A stretch of DNA of 64,000 nucleotides, taken from assembly GCF_007164525.1 (NCBI RefSeq), contig NZ_AP019791.1, positions 62,001 to 126,000 on the forward strand. The letters run 5' to 3'. The position numbers and the translations under genes are program-made. Origin of the DNA: Rubrobacter xylanophilus. GTDB lineage: Bacteria; Actinomycetota; Rubrobacteria; Rubrobacterales; Rubrobacteraceae. Numbering within the stretch: the stretch's first letter is position 1; the number at the start of each line of letters is the position of its first letter. The notes beneath the pieces are model-generated. The model was not told the DNA's origin, ran no database searches, and saw only the letters and a program-made list of their open reading frames with translations. Positions 43,186 through 54,295 of the stretch are shown here, one piece after another.

Positions 43186-44631
43186 ATGCTGGAGCTGAGC
43201 GCCTTCGAACTAGCCGAGAGGGTGCTGTCCCGCGAGGTCTCCGCCACCGAGGCGGCCGCGACCGCCAACGCCCGGGTGGAGGAGGTGGAGGGGAGGCTCA
43301 ACTCGTTCATCACCGGCACGCCGGAGCTGGCGCTGGAGCGGGCCGCCCGGGTGGACGAGCGCCTGCGCCGCGGTGAGGAAGTGCGGCCCTGGGAGTGCGT
43401 CCCGATCGCGATAAAGGACGTGCTCTCCACCCGCGGGGTCCGGACGACCTGCGGCTCGCGGATCCTGGAGAACTTCGAGCCGGTCTACGAGGCCTCTGCG
43501 CTCGCGAACTTCGGCCCAGACCCGATCATGGTGGGCAAGGCGAACATGGACGAGTTCGCGATGGGCTCTTCCACGGAGAACTCGGCCTACGGCCCCACCC
43601 GCAACCCCTGGGACCTCTCGCGGGTGCCGGGAGGGTCCTCCGGGGGCTCGGCGGCGGCGGTGGCCGCCGGAGAGGGCTGGTGGGCCCTGGGGACGGACAC
43701 GGGGGGCTCGGTGCGCCAGCCGGCCGCCTTCTGCGGGTTGGTGGGCCTGAAGCCCACCTACGGCCGCGTCTCGCGCTACGGGCTCATTGCCTTCGCCTCC
43801 TCGCTGGACCAGATCGGGCCGATGACCCGCGACGTCCGGGACGCCGCGCTCCTGTTGCAGGCGATCGCCGGACACGATCCCAGGGACTCGACCAGCGCCG
43901 ACGTGGAGGTGCCGGATTACCTCTCCTCCTTGGAGAGCGGCGTGGAGGGGCTCAGGATCGGGATCGTCCGGGAGCTCACGGAGGCCGAGGGCGTGGAGGA
44001 GGCGGTGCGCGAGATCTCACTGCGCACCGCCCGTTCCCTGGAGGAGGCCGGGGCCGAGGTCGGGGAGGTGAGCCTGCCGCACGCCAGCTACGGCCTCCCC
44101 GCCTACTACATCATCGCTCCGGCAGAGGTCTCCTCGAACCTGGCCCGCTACGACGGAGTCCGCTACGGGCTCCGGGTCCCGGCCGACGGGGTGCACGAGA
44201 TGTACCGCCGGACCCGTGCCCGGGGCTTCGGCGACGAGGTGAAACGCCGCATCATGCTCGGCACCTACGCCCTCTCCGCCGGTTACTACGAGGCCTACTA
44301 CGGCCAGGCCCAGAAGGTGCGCACAAAGATTATCGAGGACTTCCGCAAAGCCTTCACCCGCTACGATGTCCTCCTCTCTCCGACCTGTCCCACGACAGCC
44401 TTCGAACTCGGCGAGAAGGTCGACGACCCCCTCGCCATGTACGCCAACGATATCTGCTCCATCCCCGCCAGCCTCGCCGGTATCCCCGCCATCAGCATCC
44501 CCGGCGGTACCTCCAGAGGCCTGCCCGTCGGGGTGCAGCTCATGGGCGACTACTTCTCCGAACCCACCCTCCTGCGCGCCGCCCGCGCCGCCGAACGGAC
44601 CTCGGACTTCCGCTTCCACCTCAAACCCTGA
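43186..44631 (+). CDS. gatA: Asp/Glu-tRNA amidotransferase subunit A
   Basis: GatA is the glutaminase of GatCAB. The 481-residue amidase-signature protein has the catalytic lysine in VPIAIKDVLSTRGV and the serines in RVPGGSSGGSAAAVAAG and GTDTGGSVRQPAAFCG. YGRVSRYGLIAFASSLDQIG is a GatA-specific block. ATG 43186 is right after gatC. Unusually, gatB is about 4 kb away, behind a sugar cassette. Confidence 0.97.
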   Translation: MLELSAFELAERVLSREVSATEAAATANARVEEVEGRLNSFITGTPELALERAARVDERLRRGEEVRPWECVPIAIKDVLSTRGVRTTCGSRILENFEPVYEASALANFGPDPIMVGKANMDEFAMGSSTENSAYGPTRNPWDLSRVPGGSSGGSAAAVAAGEGWWALGTDTGGSVRQPAAFCGLVGLKPTYGRVSRYGLIAFASSLDQIGPMTRDVRDAALLLQAIAGHDPRDSTSADVEVPDYLSSLESGVEGLRIGIVRELTEAEGVEEAVREISLRTARSLEEAGAEVGEVSLPHASYGLPAYYIIAPAEVSSNLARYDGVRYGLRVPADGVHEMYRRTRARGFGDEVKRRIMLGTYALSAGYYEAYYGQAQKVRTKIIEDFRKAFTRYDVLLSPTCPTTAFELGEKVDDPLAMYANDICSIPASLAGIPAISIPGGTSRGLPVGVQLMGDYFSEPTLLRAARAAERTSDFRFHLKP

Positions 44632-45724: not shown

Positions 45725-47158
45725 GTGGCGAGGATAGGCATCCTGACCATGTCCGATGGCAGGGACTTCGTGCACAAAGACGTCGAGAAGTTCTGCCGCA
45801 AGGTGGAGGCCAAGATCTCCTCCGCCCTCGAAGCCGCCGGTCACGAGGTCGTGCGCGCCCGCGAGGTCGTCTGGACGAACCGGCTCGCCGTGAGCGAGGC
45901 GCGGCGCGTCGCCGACGCGCGGCCGGACCTCACGGTCTTCAACATCCCCGTGTGGGCCTTCCCGCACTTCTCGATGCTCGCCGCCGCGGAGACGCCGGGG
46001 CCGCTGCTGCTCTTCTCCAACGTGGACCCGCGGTATCCCGGCATGGTCGGGATGCTCGCGGCGGCGGGCGGGCTCGACCAGGTTGGGCGCACCTACGGCC
46101 GCGTCTGGGGCGACGTCTCCGAGCCCGAGGTGCTCGCCAGACTCGAGGCGCACGCGCGGGCGGCGCGGGCGGTAAACGGTCTTCGCGGGAGCACCTTCGG
46201 GAGGGTAGGCGGCAGGCCCATGGGCATGTACACCGCCGTCTCCAACCCCGACCAGTGGATGCAGAAGTTCGGGGTGGACGTCGAGGAGATCGACCAGTGG
46301 GAGCTCGTGCGCCGCTCGGAAGGGGTGGAGGCCAGGAAGGTCCGCGAGGCTAGGGAGTGGCTCGAGCGTCACGCCGCGGGCGTCCACTACGACGGCAAAC
46401 AGCTCACGCCCGAGCTGTTGGAGCGCCAGATCCGCTCCTACTACGCGATGCGCGAGCTGATAGAGGAGTGGAACCTAGACTTCTCCGGCATAAAGGCCCA
46501 GCCCGAGCTCACCACCCACTTCTGCACCATGGACGTCACCGAGGCCTTCCTCAACGACCCCTACGACTGGGACGGCGAGAAGGAGGTGCACGTCTGCGCC
46601 ACCGAGGCGGACATGGATGCCGCCCTCACCATGCAGATCCTGAAAGGCATGAGCGAGACGCCCGTGCTCTTCGCCGACGTCCGTCATTACCACGCCGACC
46701 GGGACATCTGGGACCTCGTGAACTCCGGCCAGCACGCCACCTGGTTCGCCGAGCGGAGCGACGACCCGGCGGAGAACCTGCGCCGCGTCCACCTCTACCC
46801 CGAGGGCTTCTACTTCCCCGCCGGCGGGGCGAGCGTGCACCACCTGGCCGCACCCGGCGAGTTCACCTTCGCCCGCCTGACGCGAAAGGAAGGACGCTAC
46901 CGGATGCACGTGCTCAAGGGCTCCTTCGAGCGCTACGATGCGGCGACCAACGAAGAGCTCATGCGCCAGTCCACCTACGAGTGGCCCCACGCCTTCGCCC
47001 GCTTCGAGGCGGAGGCCGACGAGGTGCTCTCCCGCTACGGCTCGAACCACATCCACGCCGTACCCGGCGACCGCATCCAGGAGCTGCGCGCCGTCTGCGA
47101 GCTCCTGGACATCGACTACGACGGGTTCGGCTCCGCCGGTGGTGGGGAGAGGAGATGA
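45725..47158 (+). CDS. L-fucose/arabinose isomerase-like sugar isomerase
   Basis: The 477-residue protein belongs to the L-fucose isomerase superfamily (aldose-ketose isomerases using Mn). The N-terminal Rossmann part has GRDFVHKDVEKFC and FNIPVWAFPHFSML. The catalytic region has TEADMDAALTMQILKG (metal Glu), LFADVRHY (metal Asp) and a C-terminal His in YRMHVLKG. It lies between LacI and an FGGY kinase, so it turns an aldose into a ketose that is then phosphorylated. The exact sugar cannot be read from sequence. GTG start. Confidence 0.85.
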   Translation: MARIGILTMSDGRDFVHKDVEKFCRKVEAKISSALEAAGHEVVRAREVVWTNRLAVSEARRVADARPDLTVFNIPVWAFPHFSMLAAAETPGPLLLFSNVDPRYPGMVGMLAAAGGLDQVGRTYGRVWGDVSEPEVLARLEAHARAARAVNGLRGSTFGRVGGRPMGMYTAVSNPDQWMQKFGVDVEEIDQWELVRRSEGVEARKVREAREWLERHAAGVHYDGKQLTPELLERQIRSYYAMRELIEEWNLDFSGIKAQPELTTHFCTMDVTEAFLNDPYDWDGEKEVHVCATEADMDAALTMQILKGMSETPVLFADVRHYHADRDIWDLVNSGQHATWFAERSDDPAENLRRVHLYPEGFYFPAGGASVHHLAAPGEFTFARLTRKEGRYRMHVLKGSFERYDAATNEELMRQSTYEWPHAFARFEAEADEVLSRYGSNHIHAVPGDRIQELRAVCELLDIDYDGFGSAGGGERR

Positions 47159-48651
47159 GCGGCGAGCTGCTCCTCGGGGTGGACATCGGCACCTCATCCA
47201 CCAAGGGCGTCCTCGCCCGGCCCGGCGGCGAGGTCGTTGCGACCGCCGAGCGGCCCCACGGGCTCAGCATGCCCCGCCCCGGATGGGCCGAGCACGACGC
47301 CGAGGGGGTGTGGTGGGCCGACTTCGCCGCCATCTGCCGCGAGCTGCTGGAGCAGGCCGACGGCCGGGTGGCCGCCGTGTGCACCAGCGGCATCGGGGCG
47401 TGTCTCTTGCCAGCGGACGAAGCCGGCAACCCCTTGCGGCCCGCCATCCTCTACGGGATAGACACGCGGGCGGAGAGGGAGATCGAGGAGCTTACCGGGC
47501 GCTACGGCGAGGAGGAGCTGCTGCGGAGGTGCGGCTCCGTCCTGACCACCCAGGCCGTGGGGCCCAAGCTCCTGTGGCTCAGGCGCAACGAGCCCGGGGT
47601 CTGGGAGAGGACGCGCAAGTTCTTCATGGCCAGTTCCTTTCTCGTGTGGCGCCTCACCGGGGAGTATGTCCTCGACCACCACTCCGCCAGCCAGTGTGAC
47701 CCTTTGTACGACCTGCGGGGGTGCCGCTGGATCGAGGAGTGGGCCGAAGAGATAGCGCCGGGCCTGCCGCTGCCGCGGCTGCTGTGGCCCGCCGAGGTCG
47801 CCGGGGAGGTCACCCCGGAGGCCGCCGAGGAGACCGGCATCCCCGCCGGCACCCCGGTCGCCGCCGGCACCATAGACGCCTGGAGCGAGGGCGCGAGCGT
47901 CGGGGTGCAGGAGCCCGGGGACCTCATGCTCATGTACGGGACGACGATGTTCATCATCGAGGTCGTGCGCGAGCCGCTCCACCATCCCGGCCTCTGGGGC
48001 ACCACCGGCATCCTGCCCGGGACCCGCAACCTCGCCGCCGGGATGGCGACCTCCGGGGCGCTCACCGGGTGGCTGCGCGAGATCTCCGGCGGCCTCCCCT
48101 ATGAGCGGCTCACCCGAGAGGCCGCCGCCGTCGCGCCCGGGTCCGACGGCCTCGTCGTGCTGCCGTACTTCGCCGGGGAGCGCACCCCCATCTTCGACCC
48201 AAGGGCCCGCGGGCTCATCTCCGGCCTCACCCTCAGGCACGGGCGGGGGCATCTGTACAGGGCGGTGCTCGAGGCCACCGCCTACGGCGTCCGGCACATC
48301 TTCGAGTCGATGCGCGAGGCCGGGGGCGGTGGGGAGCGGCTCGTCGCAGTCGGCGGCGGGACGAAGGGCGGGCTGTGGACGCAGATAGTCTCCGACGTCA
48401 CCGGTCGGCCGCAGCAGCTCCCCGAGCAGACCATCGGCGCCGCCTACGGCGATGCGCTGCTGGCGGCGAGGGCCGCAGGGCTCGCGGGACGGGACGAGGA
48501 CTGGAGCCGCATCTCCGCCACCGTCGAGCCCGACGAGCGCAACCGCGGCCTCTACGACGAGCTCTATCGCGTCTACCGGGAGCTGTATCCGGCGACCCGC
48601 GAGCAGATGCACCGGCTCGCGGACCTGCAGCGGGAGGAGGGCTCCGGATAG
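47155..48651 (+). CDS. FGGY-family carbohydrate kinase
   Basis: The 498-residue kinase has the ATP motif LLGVDIGTSSTKGVLARPGG, the catalytic Asp in GTIDAWSEGASVGV, GTTMFII, LVVLPYFAGERTPIFDPRARG, and the GGTKGGLWTQIVSDVTGRP adenosine motif. It resembles xylulokinase/ribulokinase-type FGGY enzymes. ATG 47155 overlaps the isomerase stop by 4 bp, so both enzymes are co-translated. Probably phosphorylates the ketose made by the isomerase. Confidence 0.9.
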   Translation: MSGELLLGVDIGTSSTKGVLARPGGEVVATAERPHGLSMPRPGWAEHDAEGVWWADFAAICRELLEQADGRVAAVCTSGIGACLLPADEAGNPLRPAILYGIDTRAEREIEELTGRYGEEELLRRCGSVLTTQAVGPKLLWLRRNEPGVWERTRKFFMASSFLVWRLTGEYVLDHHSASQCDPLYDLRGCRWIEEWAEEIAPGLPLPRLLWPAEVAGEVTPEAAEETGIPAGTPVAAGTIDAWSEGASVGVQEPGDLMLMYGTTMFIIEVVREPLHHPGLWGTTGILPGTRNLAAGMATSGALTGWLREISGGLPYERLTREAAAVAPGSDGLVVLPYFAGERTPIFDPRARGLISGLTLRHGRGHLYRAVLEATAYGVRHIFESMREAGGGGERLVAVGGGTKGGLWTQIVSDVTGRPQQLPEQTIGAAYGDALLAARAAGLAGRDEDWSRISATVEPDERNRGLYDELYRVYRELYPATREQMHRLADLQREEGSG

Positions 48652-48717: not shown

Positions 48718-50175
48718 TTGGAGCTGAAGGACGGTAAAGCTTACCAGGCGGTGATCGGGCTGGAGTTCCACGTCCATCTCTCCACCCGCACCAAGATGTT
48801 CTGCGGCTGCCGGGTGACCTACGGCGAGCCGCCCAACACGCACGTCTGCCCGGTGTGTCTCGGCCACCCCGGGGCGCTGCCGGTCATCAACGAACGGGCC
48901 GTGGAGCTCGGGGTGATGGCCGGGCTCGCGCTCAACTGCCGGGTCGCCGGGCGGGCCGTCTTCGCCCGCAAGAACTACTTCTACCCCGACCTGCCGAAGG
49001 GCTATCAGATCTCCCAGTACGAGGAGCCCATCTGCACCGGCGGCCACATCGAAGTGCCCACCTCCGATGGTACGGTGAGGGTGAGGATCCGGCGGCTGCA
49101 CCTGGAGGAGGACACGGCGAAGAACGTACACGTGGGGGAGTCGGGCCGGATGCATGGATCTGTGGGCTCGCTCATAGACTTCAACCGCAGCGGGGTGCCT
49201 CTCATGGAGATCGTCACCGAGCCGGACATCCCCTCCCCCGAGGCGGCCCGGCAGACCGCCATGCGGCTCAGGGAGATCCTGCAGGCCGTCGGGGCCTCGG
49301 AGGCGGACATGGAGAAGGGCCAGATGCGCTGCGAGGCGAACGTCTCGCTGCGCGGCCCGGACGGCACGCCCGGAACCCGCACGGAGCTCAAGAACATCAA
49401 CTCGTTCCGCTTTATGGAGCGGGGGCTGGTGCGGGAGCTGCGGCGCCAGCGGGAGGTGCTGGAGGCCGGCGGCGAGGTGCAGCAGGCCACCATCCACTAC
49501 GATCCGGTCGCCGACGAGGTGCATGAGCTGAGGAGCAAGGAGTTCGCCGAGGACTACCGCTACTTCCCCGAGCCGGACCTGCTGCCGCTGGAGCTCTCCC
49601 CGGCCTGGGTCGGGGAGCTTCGCCGGCTCCTCCCGGAGCTCCCGGAGCAGACCCGCCGCCGCTTCGTCGAGCAGTACGGGCTCCCGGAGTCCGACGCGGC
49701 GGTGCTCACCGCCGAGAGGGAGATGGCCGCCTTCTACGAGAGGGTGGCCTCCGAGGTGGACCCCAGGCAGGCGGCGAACTGGATCTCCGGCGACCTCCGG
49801 GCCCTCCTGAACGAGGCTCAGATGGGCATCTCCGACTCCAGGGTTCGCCCGGAGCACATGGTCGAGCTGATCCGGCTCGTGCAGGAGGGGGCGGTCTCCC
49901 GCTCGGCAGCCAAGACGGTGCTGGGGAAGGTCTTCGAGAGCGGCGAGCGGCCCTCCGAAGTGGTCGAGCGCGAGGGGCTCGCCCAGATGGGGGCCGACGA
50001 GCTCGGCGGGATAGTGGACCAGGTGATCTCCTCGAACCCCGAGGAGGCCGAGCGGGTGAGAAACGGCGACCAGAAGGTGGTGGGCTTCCTTATCGGCCAG
50101 GTGATGCGGGCGACCCGGGGCCAGGCCGACGGCGGCCGGGTGCGCCAGCTGATCCTGGAGAGGCTCGGCTCCTAG
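48718..50175 (+). CDS. gatB: Asp/Glu-tRNA amidotransferase subunit B
   Basis: GatB binds the misacylated tRNA and activates it. The 485-residue protein has [69 protein letters not shown] and KNINSFRF, and a C-terminal YqeY-like helical domain with [16 protein letters not shown]. The zinc cysteines CGC and CPVC are present. TTG start. Separated from gatCA by the sugar cassette. Confidence 0.97.
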
Positions 50176-50178
50176 CCT

Positions 50179-51423
50179 TTGGCCGAGCCGGGCAGACCGC
50201 TGGTGGGGATCGCCGCCCCGGAGACCTCCGAACTGGCCGAGTCGGTGCTGGAGTCCGGCGGCGAGCCGCTGGAGATCCCGTTCCCCGGCGCTCCGCTGGA
50301 ATGGGGCGTGGCCCTCTGCCGCGAGTGGACGGCCGACGCGCTGGAGGTGAACCTCAGGACCCTCTCTCCGGAGGCGCTGCTCTTCGACGCGCCCTCCCCC
50401 GCCGGGCTGGCCGCCGCGCTCGCCGCGGCCGTGCGCACGGGGCTTCCGGCGGTCTGCGCGGCATCTCCGCAGCGGAACACCTTCGCCGCGGCCCTGGCCG
50501 GCCTCGGAGCGCTTCCCCTGCGCGAGGATCCCGCCGCCTGCGCCGTCCGGCTGGCCGGCGAGGGAAGGCCACGGGCGGGCGACCTGATCGAGGACTTCGC
50601 GCTGGCGAACGCCCTCCGGGCAGGCGCCGCCGTGGGCTGCGGACCGGAGGCCTTCGTCCACCTGGCTGCCCTGGCCCGGGAGGCCGAGGTCGGGGGCTTC
50701 GACCGGATGGTCCGGGCGATAGTCCCCGGAGCGCCCGGAATTGCCCGCCCGGACTCCCCCTGGCTGAAGGAGCACGGCCTCCCCGGCCTGCTCGCCCGGC
50801 TCGGCGACGACCTCCACGACACCCTTACCGTCTGCGGGCGCATCCGGGAGTTTCTCCCCCCCGATCCCCCGTCCCCGCCCCAGGACCCCCCGCAGGGCCG
50901 CTTCGCGTTCGTCGAGGCCCGGGCCTCCGGCGCCGAGGCGCTCTGCAGCCTCCCCGGAGAGGCCGGGGAGCCCGCGGGCGAGTGCAGCGTCTACCTCTCA
51001 GAGAAGAGCGCCGCCCGGGCGGTCAGGTGGGAGCGGGTCGAGCCCGGCTCCATCGTCGTCGTGGTCGGGTGCGGCCCGCGCGGCGCCCCCGGCCTGCGCC
51101 GGCTCGACGCCCTCGAGGAGGCCATGCAGGAGGCGGGCTTCCGGGTGCCGGTGCTCACCGACGGCCTCGCCCCCGAGGGGGCGGGGGGCGTCTGGATCTC
51201 CGCGTTCACCCCCGAGTCCGCCGCCGAAGGGGTGATAGGCCGCCTGCGACAGGGCGACTTCCTCCGCATAGACCTCGAGCGCCGGGCCATCAGGACCAGC
51301 GCCGACCCCGAGGCGTTCGCCCGGCGCGACTACTTCGGAACCTCCCGGGCCCGGGGTCACGGCTACGCATCCCGCTACGCCCGCTCCGCCCTCCCCGCCC
51401 TCGACGGCGCGTCCTTCGGCTAG
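50179..51423 (+). CDS. Degenerate IlvD/Edd-family (dihydroxy-acid dehydratase-like) protein
   Basis: The 414-residue protein keeps the outline of IlvD: a middle segment DFALANALRAGAAVGCGPEAF followed by VHLAALAREAEV, a late segment VVVVGCGPRGAPGLRRL, then VPVLTDGLAPEGAGGVW, FLRIDLERRAIRT, and the tail YARSALPALDGASFG. It is about 140 residues shorter than IlvD. The expected cysteine motifs (such as CDK) are replaced, for example by APSPAG. A catalytic 2Fe-2S cluster is therefore unlikely. It starts 3 nt after gatB. Homology is by eye; function unknown. Confidence 0.72.
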   Translation: MAEPGRPLVGIAAPETSELAESVLESGGEPLEIPFPGAPLEWGVALCREWTADALEVNLRTLSPEALLFDAPSPAGLAAALAAAVRTGLPAVCAASPQRNTFAAALAGLGALPLREDPAACAVRLAGEGRPRAGDLIEDFALANALRAGAAVGCGPEAFVHLAALAREAEVGGFDRMVRAIVPGAPGIARPDSPWLKEHGLPGLLARLGDDLHDTLTVCGRIREFLPPDPPSPPQDPPQGRFAFVEARASGAEALCSLPGEAGEPAGECSVYLSEKSAARAVRWERVEPGSIVVVVGCGPRGAPGLRRLDALEEAMQEAGFRVPVLTDGLAPEGAGGVWISAFTPESAAEGVIGRLRQGDFLRIDLERRAIRTSADPEAFARRDYFGTSRARGHGYASRYARSALPALDGASFG

Positions 51424-51557: not shown

Positions 51558-52715
51558 ATGCAGAACAAGTACCGCCTGATGTCTCCCGGACCCACCCCCA
51601 TTCCACCCGAGGTCTCCGCGGCCGGTGCGCTGCCGATCATCCACCACCGGACCCCGGAGTTCGGTGAGGTCTTCACCCGGGTAAACGAGAACCTCAAGCG
51701 GGTCTTCCTGACGGAGAACGACATCTTCACCTACGCGGCCAGCGGAACGGGATCCTTCGAGGGGGCGCTGCAGAACCTCTTCTCGCCCGGCGACAGGGTG
51801 CTCGTGGTCAACAACGGGAACTTCGGCGGCCGCTGGGTCAAGATGAGCCGGGCCTTCGGGCTGGAGGTCACCGAGCTCACCTACGAGTGGGGGCAGAAGG
51901 CGGACAACGACGAGGTCGCCGAGGCGCTCGCGGCCGACCCGCAGATAAAGGGGGCCATCTGCGTGCTCTCCGAGACCTCCACCGGGACGGTCAACGACAT
52001 CCGGGGCTTCGCGAAGGCCACGGAGAACGTGCTGACCATCGTGGACGCCGTCAGCGGTCTGGGGGCGTGCGAGCTCAGGACCGACGAGTGGGGGGTCGAC
52101 GTGGTGGTCGCCGGCAGCCAGAAGGCGCTCATGACCCCGCCGGGCCTGGGGTTCGTCAGCGTCTCCGAGCGGGCCTGGCGGGCGCACGAGGAGGCCCGGC
52201 TGCCGCGCTACTACTTCGACTGGACGGCGGCCAGGAAGGCCTACAGGAAAGACCCGCCCCAGACCCCGTGGACCCCGGCGGTGAGCGTGATCATACAGCT
52301 CGATCTGGCGCTGCAGCAGATCCTGGAGGAGGGGCTGGAGAACGTCCTGGAGCGGCACGTGTTGCTGGGGCGGGCGGCGCGCGCGGGGGTCAAGGGGATG
52401 GGCCTCAGGCTCTTCGGGCCCGACGAGGACATGAACACCGCGGTCACCGCCGCGTGGGTCCCCGAGGGGATCGACGGCAAGCAGCTCGTGCGGATGGTCT
52501 TCCGGGAGCACGGGATACAGGTTGCCGGTGGTCAGGGGCCGATGGAGGGCAAGATCTTCCGGATCGGCCACTGCGGCTACTTCGACGCCTACGACATCAT
52601 CGCCACCGTCGCGGCCATCGAGCTCGCGCTGGAGTCCCTCGGACATCCGGTCGAGCTGGGCAAGGGCGTGGGCGCCGCGCAGCGGGTCTTCTCGAAGAGC
52701 GGGGTGGCCGCTTGA
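51558..52715 (+). CDS. Class V aminotransferase (serine/phosphoserine aminotransferase type)
   Basis: The 385-residue PLP enzyme starts RLMSPGPTPIPPEV and has the PLP lysine in VVAGSQKALMTPPG, DAVSGLGACELRTDEWGVD and a C-terminal FRIGHCGYFDAYDII. It is closest in pattern to serine-glyoxylate/alanine-glyoxylate-type enzymes. Coupling to serA by a 4-bp overlap suggests it makes (phospho)serine in place of SerC. The 134-nt upstream gap (51424-51557) has short hairpins but no assigned riboswitch. Confidence 0.9.
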   Translation: MQNKYRLMSPGPTPIPPEVSAAGALPIIHHRTPEFGEVFTRVNENLKRVFLTENDIFTYAASGTGSFEGALQNLFSPGDRVLVVNNGNFGGRWVKMSRAFGLEVTELTYEWGQKADNDEVAEALAADPQIKGAICVLSETSTGTVNDIRGFAKATENVLTIVDAVSGLGACELRTDEWGVDVVVAGSQKALMTPPGLGFVSVSERAWRAHEEARLPRYYFDWTAARKAYRKDPPQTPWTPAVSVIIQLDLALQQILEEGLENVLERHVLLGRAARAGVKGMGLRLFGPDEDMNTAVTAAWVPEGIDGKQLVRMVFREHGIQVAGGQGPMEGKIFRIGHCGYFDAYDIIATVAAIELALESLGHPVELGKGVGAAQRVFSKSGVAA

Positions 52716-54295
52716 GGGTCCTCGTAACCGAGAGGCTCGCCGAGAGCGGCATCGAGCTCCTCAGGAGGGAGTTCGAGGTGGACGTTCTCCTCGGGCTCTC
52801 GCCCGGAGAGCTGGTGGAGAAGATCGGGGAGTACGACGGCCTGATCGTCCGCAGCGCCACGAAGGTGACGGCGGAGGTCATAGAGGCCGCCGGGAGGCTC
52901 AAAGCCATCGGGCGCGCCGGGATCGGGGTGGACAACATAGACATCGAGGCGGCGACCAAGCGGGGCATCCTGGTCGCCAATGCCCCGGAGAGCAACACGG
53001 TGGCCGCCGCCGAGCACACCCTGGGGCTGATGCTCGCCGTCGCCCGCCGCATCCCGGCCGCCGACGCCTCGCTGCGCCGCGGAGAGTGGAACCGCAGCGC
53101 CTTCAAGGGCGTGGAGGTCGCGGAGAAGACGCTCGGTCTGGTGGGGCTGGGACACGTGGGCTCCATCGTGGCCCGGGGCGCCCTGGGGATGGGGATGCGG
53201 GTGCTCGCCTACGACCCCTACGTCTCCGAGGAGAGGATGCGCTCGATGAACGTCGAGCGCGCGGCCTCCCTGGAGGAGGTCCTCGAAGAGGCCGACTTCG
53301 TCTCGCTGCACGTGCCCCGGACGCCGCAGACCACGGGCATGGTGGACGAGGAGGCCCTGGCCCGGATGAAGCCCACCGCCTACCTGATAAACGTGGCCCG
53401 GGGCGGGATCGTGGACGAGACGGCCCTCTACAACGCTCTCAAGCAGGGCGAGATAGCGGGGGCCGCGCTCGACGTCTTCGCCGAGGAGCCGACGACCGAG
53501 TCGCCCCTCTTCACCCTCCCGAACGTGGTCGTCACCCCGCACCTGGGGGCCAGCACCGCCGAGGCTCAGGACCGGGCGGGCGTCACGGCGGCCGAGCAGG
53601 TGGCGGCGGCCCTCCGGGGCGAGGTGCCGGTCCACGCCATAAACGCGCCGGTGCCGGCTGGTGAGGGGGCGGAGTTCGTCTCCCAGTTCGCCGGGCTCTG
53701 CGAGACGCTGGGGAGGCTGCTCTACCAGCTCACGGACCGGCCCGGCAGCCACCTCAGGATAGAGTACCGGGGCGAGATCGGGGCCTACGACACCCGGCTG
53801 CTGGACGTCTCTGTGCAGAAGGGGCTGCTGACCCGGATGGTGCACGAGCCGCTGAACTACGTTAACACGCCCATCCTGGCGAAGGAGCGGGGCCTGAAGG
53901 TGGAGACCTCCAAGACCTCAGAGAGCTCGGACTACACCAACCTGGTGGTGGCCAGGATCGAGAGCAACGGCGGCGAGAGCGTGGTGAGCGGTACTCTCAC
54001 CGGCCCCCGGATGCAGCCCCGGCTGGTGGAGGCCCTCGGCCACACGCTGGACATCGTCCCGGAGCGGCACATGCTCTTCATCCGCAACAGGGACGTGCCG
54101 GGCATGATCGGGAAGGTCGGCACGATCCTGGGCGAGCACGGGATCAACATCGGCAACATGGCCGTGGGCCGCGGCGAACCGGGCAGCCGGGCGGCGATGG
54201 CGGTGACCGTGGACGAACCGGTGCCCCAGGAGGTCATAGAGAACCTCCTGAAGATCCCGGGTTTCGAAGACGCCCGGGCGGTCACCCTCTACTAG
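52712..54295 (+). CDS. serA: D-3-phosphoglycerate dehydrogenase
   Basis: SerA starts serine synthesis from 3-phosphoglycerate. The 527-residue protein has the substrate/NAD domains (VRSATKVTAEVIEAA, AGIGVDNIDI, the NAD motif LVGLGHVGSIVA, RGGIVDETALYNAL, PHLGAST), an intervening ASB domain, and a C-terminal ACT domain (about 455-527: MLFIRNRDVPGMIGKVGTIL) for serine feedback. TTG 52712 overlaps the aminotransferase stop. Confidence 0.97.
   Translation: MRVLVTERLAESGIELLRREFEVDVLLGLSPGELVEKIGEYDGLIVRSATKVTAEVIEAAGRLKAIGRAGIGVDNIDIEAATKRGILVANAPESNTVAAAEHTLGLMLAVARRIPAADASLRRGEWNRSAFKGVEVAEKTLGLVGLGHVGSIVARGALGMGMRVLAYDPYVSEERMRSMNVERAASLEEVLEEADFVSLHVPRTPQTTGMVDEEALARMKPTAYLINVARGGIVDETALYNALKQGEIAGAALDVFAEEPTTESPLFTLPNVVVTPHLGASTAEAQDRAGVTAAEQVAAALRGEVPVHAINAPVPAGEGAEFVSQFAGLCETLGRLLYQLTDRPGSHLRIEYRGEIGAYDTRLLDVSVQKGLLTRMVHEPLNYVNTPILAKERGLKVETSKTSESSDYTNLVVARIESNGGESVVSGTLTGPRMQPRLVEALGHTLDIVPERHMLFIRNRDVPGMIGKVGTILGEHGINIGNMAVGRGEPGSRAAMAVTVDEPVPQEVIENLLKIPGFEDARAVTLY

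Follow-up and report, generated by a model that had tools for sequence, protein, structure and literature searches.

A candidate pseudoenzyme of the IlvD/Edd superfamily kept directly behind gatB across the class Rubrobacteria

The window, that is, the whole stretch of DNA analyzed here, comprises 64,000 nucleotides of the Rubrobacter xylanophilus genome (contig NZ_AP019791.1, positions 62,001 to 126,000). Its forward strand carries gatC (42900), gatA (about 43189-44631), and gatB (48718-50175), and behind gatB a gene of 414 codons with a TTG start (50179-51423), here called X, whose product appears to be a catalytically dead homologue of the IlvD/Edd dehydratases. The start codon of X lies 3 bases past the gatB stop at 50175. 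Downstream, on the same strand, are a class-V aminotransferase gene (51558-52715), whose spacing from X is variable, and serA (D-3-phosphoglycerate dehydrogenase with an ACT domain; about 52712-54295). A scan for promoters and terminators around X found none. The gatCAB operon is split in the window by an L-fucose isomerase-like gene and an FGGY carbohydrate kinase gene, both lying between gatA and gatB (45725-48651, forward strand). The sister species (G001) has the same pair at this place, and other genomes have other gaps there.

The X protein of the window alone matched two Pfam domains, ILV_EDD_C (3.1e-22) and ILVD_EDD_N (5.6e-5), and both were matched by all 32 full-length X orthologues, with best values of 4.2e-28 and 1.1e-13, respectively. 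The first-pass annotation had read X as an IlvD/Edd paralogue and had proposed an HMM-HMM comparison and a structure prediction as checks; both bear this reading out. The HHalign comparison of the X profile with a profile of 43 actinobacterial IlvDs gave a probability of 100% and an E value of 9e-41 over 404 aligned columns. With the NCBIfam ilvD models, X scored far under the cut-offs (TIGR00110, 68 bits vs. 618), as expected for a protein that is no longer a dihydroxy-acid dehydratase (DHAD).

The AlphaFold model of X, built from the 32 orthologues, was confident (mean pLDDT 90.1, pTM 0.91) and has the two-domain DHAD fold over the whole chain. It superposes on Synechocystis DHAD (6NTE) with a Z score of 36.5 over 406 of the 414 residues at 3.3 Å, and on M. 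tuberculosis IlvD (6OVT) with a Z score of 33.4 over 412 residues at 2.9 Å. The order of the motifs is the same as in DHAD, and X retains the SRE helix, the TDG loop, and the PEA segment; it differs from DHAD in being about 150 residues shorter, in lacking the Fe-S cysteines, the Mg ligands, and the catalytic serine, and in having both PROSITE signatures broken. The sugar-acid and 6-phosphogluconate dehydratases (5OYN, 5J84, 2GP4) share the fold with X as well (Z about 29-31), but their structural scores are below those of DHAD and their catalytic residues are likewise lost in X. Partial fold matches to RraA or to receiver domains (Z about 8) are resemblances of a single domain. Because the profile alignment and the superposition extend over the full length, X is best described as a complete IlvD from which pieces have been excised and not as a fragment; with both domains and the two-domain fold, it belongs to the IlvD/Edd superfamily by descent.

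IlvD/Edd enzymes are defined by three Fe-S cysteines, by the Mg ligands Asp80, Asp122, carbamylated Lys123, and Glu446, and by a serine that acts as the base (PMC5770437, PMC9543379). The signature CDK-x(2)-P-[GA] contains one Fe-S cysteine, an Mg-binding Asp, and the carbamylated Lys (PMC5770437), and the other two cysteines are at alignment positions 48 and 194 (PMC9543379). X has 414 residues versus 569 in the intact IlvD of the same genome, so that about 155 are missing, namely the N-terminal extension, the loop that carries Cys ligand 1, some 10 residues ahead of the SRE helix, and a segment of about 50 residues that includes Cys ligand 3. The segments of the first and third Fe-S cysteines are thus deleted, the site of the latter deletion, which also takes out the helix-loop-helix, being at 50473-50478 (codons 99-100). 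Where the CDK-x-x-P motif should supply Cys ligand 2 and the Mg ligands Asp and carbamylated Lys (50386-50409, codons 70-77), the window protein reads DAPSPAGL; the seven residues that stand at the signature itself, DAPSPAG, vary among the orthologues, and the signature is absent. Among the 32 orthologues, the Mg ligand Asp80 is replaced mostly by Gly at X position 42 and Glu446 mostly by Arg at position 308, the Glu being retained in a single one. The second signature, TD-[GA]-R-x-S-[GA], is also absent, the TDGRFSGG of IlvD having degenerated to TDGLAPEG (51157-51180, codons 327-334) with an invariant Pro332 in place of the catalytic Ser. By alignment, X has lost all three Fe-S cysteines, whose absence had been noted earlier from the window alone, as well as all four Mg ligands and the catalytic Ser, and it lacks the residues by which a functional DHAD is recognized.

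What X has kept and gained was examined in the 131 IlvD columns that are at least 95% conserved. X keeps 37 of these, including the TDG and PEA segments and the SRE helix; 59 have become variable, 22 are deleted, and at 13 X has a different residue, itself at least 90% conserved. Segments of the former active site hold several of these replacements (N276 to E157, A389-P390 to S250-G251, S474 to P332, and G483 to S341), and in another 44 columns conservation is confined to X. Codons 256, 269, and 298 (in the stretch 50944-51072) encode cysteines that occur in 28, 29, and 26 of the 32 orthologues, respectively, and are absent from the 43 IlvDs; in the secondary-structure prediction, C256 and C269 fall on consecutive strands. 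These positions could form a disulfide or bind a metal, though they are not strictly kept, and a strict three-cysteine metal site was rejected, all three residues being present together in only 22 of the 32. The new residues are what one would look for if X were a new enzyme, with the interdomain cleft rebuilt for another reaction, and the X-specific conserved W50, W195, R248, S250, and W339, with the three cysteines, would fit such a protein. However, a conserved metal-binding site or catalytic triad was not recognized in X, the cysteines are incompletely shared, and the fast rate of evolution and the scattered loss of polar residues are easier to reconcile with a non-catalytic protein. We regard a new enzymatic activity as unlikely, if still credible.

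The most invariant stretch of X is the helix that matches the SRE-x-x-AD helix of IlvD (50305-50361, codons 43-61), where G43, L46, R48, E49, W50, and D53 are the same in all 32 orthologues; 34 residues are invariant over the protein. In D-xylonate dehydratase the helix of residues 99-115 is the center of the dimer interface, and in the family the C-terminal end contributes to the active site of the partner subunit (PMC5770437); the correspondence between the helix of X and helix 99-115 was derived here. The C-terminal end of X is conserved too (Y396, R399, G410, and F413). A second, intact ilvD, proposed earlier as something to look for, is present elsewhere in the 3.02 Mb genome (G000), at 618 kb, with ilvC at 2419 kb, and nearly every X-bearing genome has an IlvD-length homologue. 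With the R, E, and D of the interface helix retained and the tail conserved, X could serve the intact IlvD as a regulatory or structural subunit, forming mixed dimers through the shared helix and so tuning or stabilizing branched-chain amino acid synthesis. This seems rather doubtful: X is unlinked to ilvD or ilvC in this genome, an X homodimer would need the same helix, and IlvD is near universal, so its co-occurrence with X is uninformative.

Orthologues of X were found in 37 of the 39 genomes of the Rubrobacteria class, and the two that lack it are incomplete assemblies (G005, 60% complete, and G030, 79%). Full-length open copies number 32; contig ends truncate a further four, and the G028 copy carries a frameshift. 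In a phylum sample of 396 genomes, all X matches fell in this class, the weakest being a fragment at 4.5e-54; X was found in none of the 358 other sampled phylum genomes, where the best match was an ilvD-length frame (3.1e-39). A single-protein scan of genome contigs gave as its only match a canonical-looking ilvD relative of Prosthecobacter and says little on spread outside the phylum. Pairwise dN/dS of X was 0.05-0.35 by NG86, the only method quoted because YN00 gave unstable results where dS was high, and was about 2-3 times that of gatB in most pairs; identity across the class is about 50% for X versus about 74% for GatB. These rates indicate that X is under purifying selection, less strict than its neighbors. 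With the catalytic residues lost across the 32 orthologues and purifying selection evident in many lineages, X has by sequence the properties of a pseudoenzyme. The two findings on which the first-pass annotation could have foundered were not encountered, the profile match being very strong and the gene being class-wide rather than confined to a single decaying strain, and its view that X is kept agrees with the survey of relatives.

A decaying pseudogene, or a passive relic held only by its place behind gatB, is very improbable: X does evolve faster than gatB, most copies start with TTG or GTG, and the G028 copy is frameshifted, but 32 complete copies are open over about 400 codons, dN/dS is well below 1, the invariant residues and the confident fold speak against decay, and the G028 frameshift is most likely due to assembly or sequencing indels, since the adjoining aminotransferase and serA genes (L043) are frameshifted as well. 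Pseudogene decay, contradicted by the open frames and dN/dS, was rejected. Hardly credible at all is a dehydratase that still works with a different, unrecognized cofactor arrangement, for which one might cite the ILV_EDD_C match over the Pfam cut-off and the three new conserved cysteines, but which would have to do without every Fe-S, Mg, and base position and with degenerate CDK and DGRxSG signatures.

The origin of X can be approached through gene order. Two other families provide five genomes (G052, G111, G150, G354, and G164) in which gatCAB is followed by a few genes and then by leuC-leuD-leuB-like genes, ilvD, ilvB, ilvH, ilvC, and an aminotransferase gene, with serA visible wherever the stretch extends that far; the family was checked for G354, and the other four were assigned by position and similarity. 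In a sixth genome (G096), a single gene separates gatB from ilvD, behind which come ilvB-, ilvH-, and ilvC-like genes. A placement of ilvD between gatB and serA, which the first-pass annotation had mentioned for some actinobacteria, is thus seen in the gene maps of the five genomes, and the sixth has gatB, one gene, and ilvD in that order. In three loci of a gat-ilvD cluster from another family (L143:4696-5733, L144:4273-5301, and L145:12972-13970), the gene after gatB encodes a protein that begins with zinc-ribbon-like CPxC motifs; an NCBIfam scan of the L143 copy gave no match.

With respect to gatB and the aminotransferase-serA pair, the ilvD of these gat clusters has the same place as X, but it is full-length and over the NCBIfam ilvD cut-off, and the leuCDB and ilvBHC genes of its surroundings are missing around X. 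In the tree, all X sequences form a single clade, whose stem measures 3.8 changes per column. Grouping X with Rubrobacter IlvD lowered the likelihood by 3.4 relative to the free tree (AU test, p = 0.44), and grouping it with the gat-cluster IlvD group gave a likelihood 8.7 better than the free tree (p = 0.69); neither was rejected, and the split joining X to the sugar-acid enzymes had a support of 0. Because of the long stem, the tree and the AU tests settle on no placement of X within the family. The likelihood slightly favors common descent with the gat-cluster ilvD over an origin from the Rubrobacter ilvD, not significantly. Since X stands where ilvD stands in relatives, it is plausibly the former ilvD of a gatCAB...leuCDB-ilvD-ilvBHC-aminotransferase-serA cluster, and the simplest reading would be that a vertically inherited ilvD became nonfunctional once another ilvD had assumed its role.

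X lies directly 3' of gatB, on the same strand, in all 36 genomes where this could be checked. With starts chosen by homology, the spacing is mostly 0-16 nt and is within about 25 nt in 33 of the 36, the three exceptions being estimated at 60-135 nt. The gatA and gatB genes are less than 200 nt apart in only eight loci and are often separated by 0.7-3.5 kb, and the distance from X to the aminotransferase gene ranges from about 0.1 to 3.9 kb or goes beyond the stretch read; gatB-X is therefore the single fixed junction. The first-pass annotation had placed X between gatB and the aminotransferase-serA pair, which is the gene order of the window, but across the class the tight, universal partner is gatB and not the pair. 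One genome (G025, L045:4998-7862) has a downstream partner other than the aminotransferase gene: a dihydropteroate synthase-like gene (Pterin_bind) that slightly overlaps X comes next, and with it a RibD_C reductase gene.

The G000 genome yielded only a single class-II synthetase of the Asp/Asn/Lys group of tRNA synthetases (PF00152; C1:639411-640724, L152), which suggests that there is no AsnRS and that the LysRS is of class I. With a single synthetase of this type, GatCAB is probably essential for Asn-tRNA, which would place X in an essential unit.

Taken together, X is probably a retained pseudoenzyme that is co-translated with GatB and serves as a non-catalytic partner protein. A single ancient DHAD copy would have lost its Fe-S/Mg site before Rubrobacteria radiated and would since have been kept as a folded, non-catalytic protein. 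The short junction is consistent with translational coupling to GatB, and X may still dimerize through the interface helix and the C-terminal tail that it has kept from IlvD. The emptied and remodeled interdomain cleft may be a docking site for a ligand or a protein, its segments having changed to the new conserved residues E157, S250, G251, P332, and S341, with R248, W339, and the cysteines nearby in sequence. X might then act in assembly, stability, or metabolite sensing, in an amount tied to GatB/GatCAB; if the amidotransferase is essential, the gatB transcript would be a dependable place for X and GatCAB a plausible partner. The homology, the loss of the active site, the fold of the confident model, the selection, the gatB adjacency, and the class-wide retention were computed.

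We advance only tentatively a bolder version, in which X, derived from a dead enzyme of branched-chain amino acid synthesis, was recruited as a lineage-specific added component of GatCAB and is translated together with GatB. Accessory proteins of tRNA amidotransferases and transamidosomes would be its functional analogue if X works with GatCAB. The adjacency to gatB may instead be an inherited position that offers convenient expression without a shared function, and the fast evolution of X implies that the constraint on any partner surface is moderate. The first-pass annotation had also suggested a new role for X, as a regulator or a scaffold. Its homology, ligand loss, retention, intact ilvD, and synteny stand, which supports its interpretation in part; such a role is conceivable.

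Pseudoenzymes are well known in signaling families. Our literature search found no pseudoenzyme described for the IlvD/Edd Fe-S dehydratases and no description of X, including its expression, partner, or phenotype. X is a candidate for a real, class-wide, long-kept pseudoenzyme. Its active-site loss is old, complete, and class-wide, and the presumed ancestral gene order can still be read in relatives, so that X offers a clean example from nature of a metabolic enzyme that has become something else. The invariant gatB-X junction points to a direct, testable partner, and if X is a component of GatCAB, it would link amino-acid supply to the formation of Asn/Gln-tRNA throughout Rubrobacteria.
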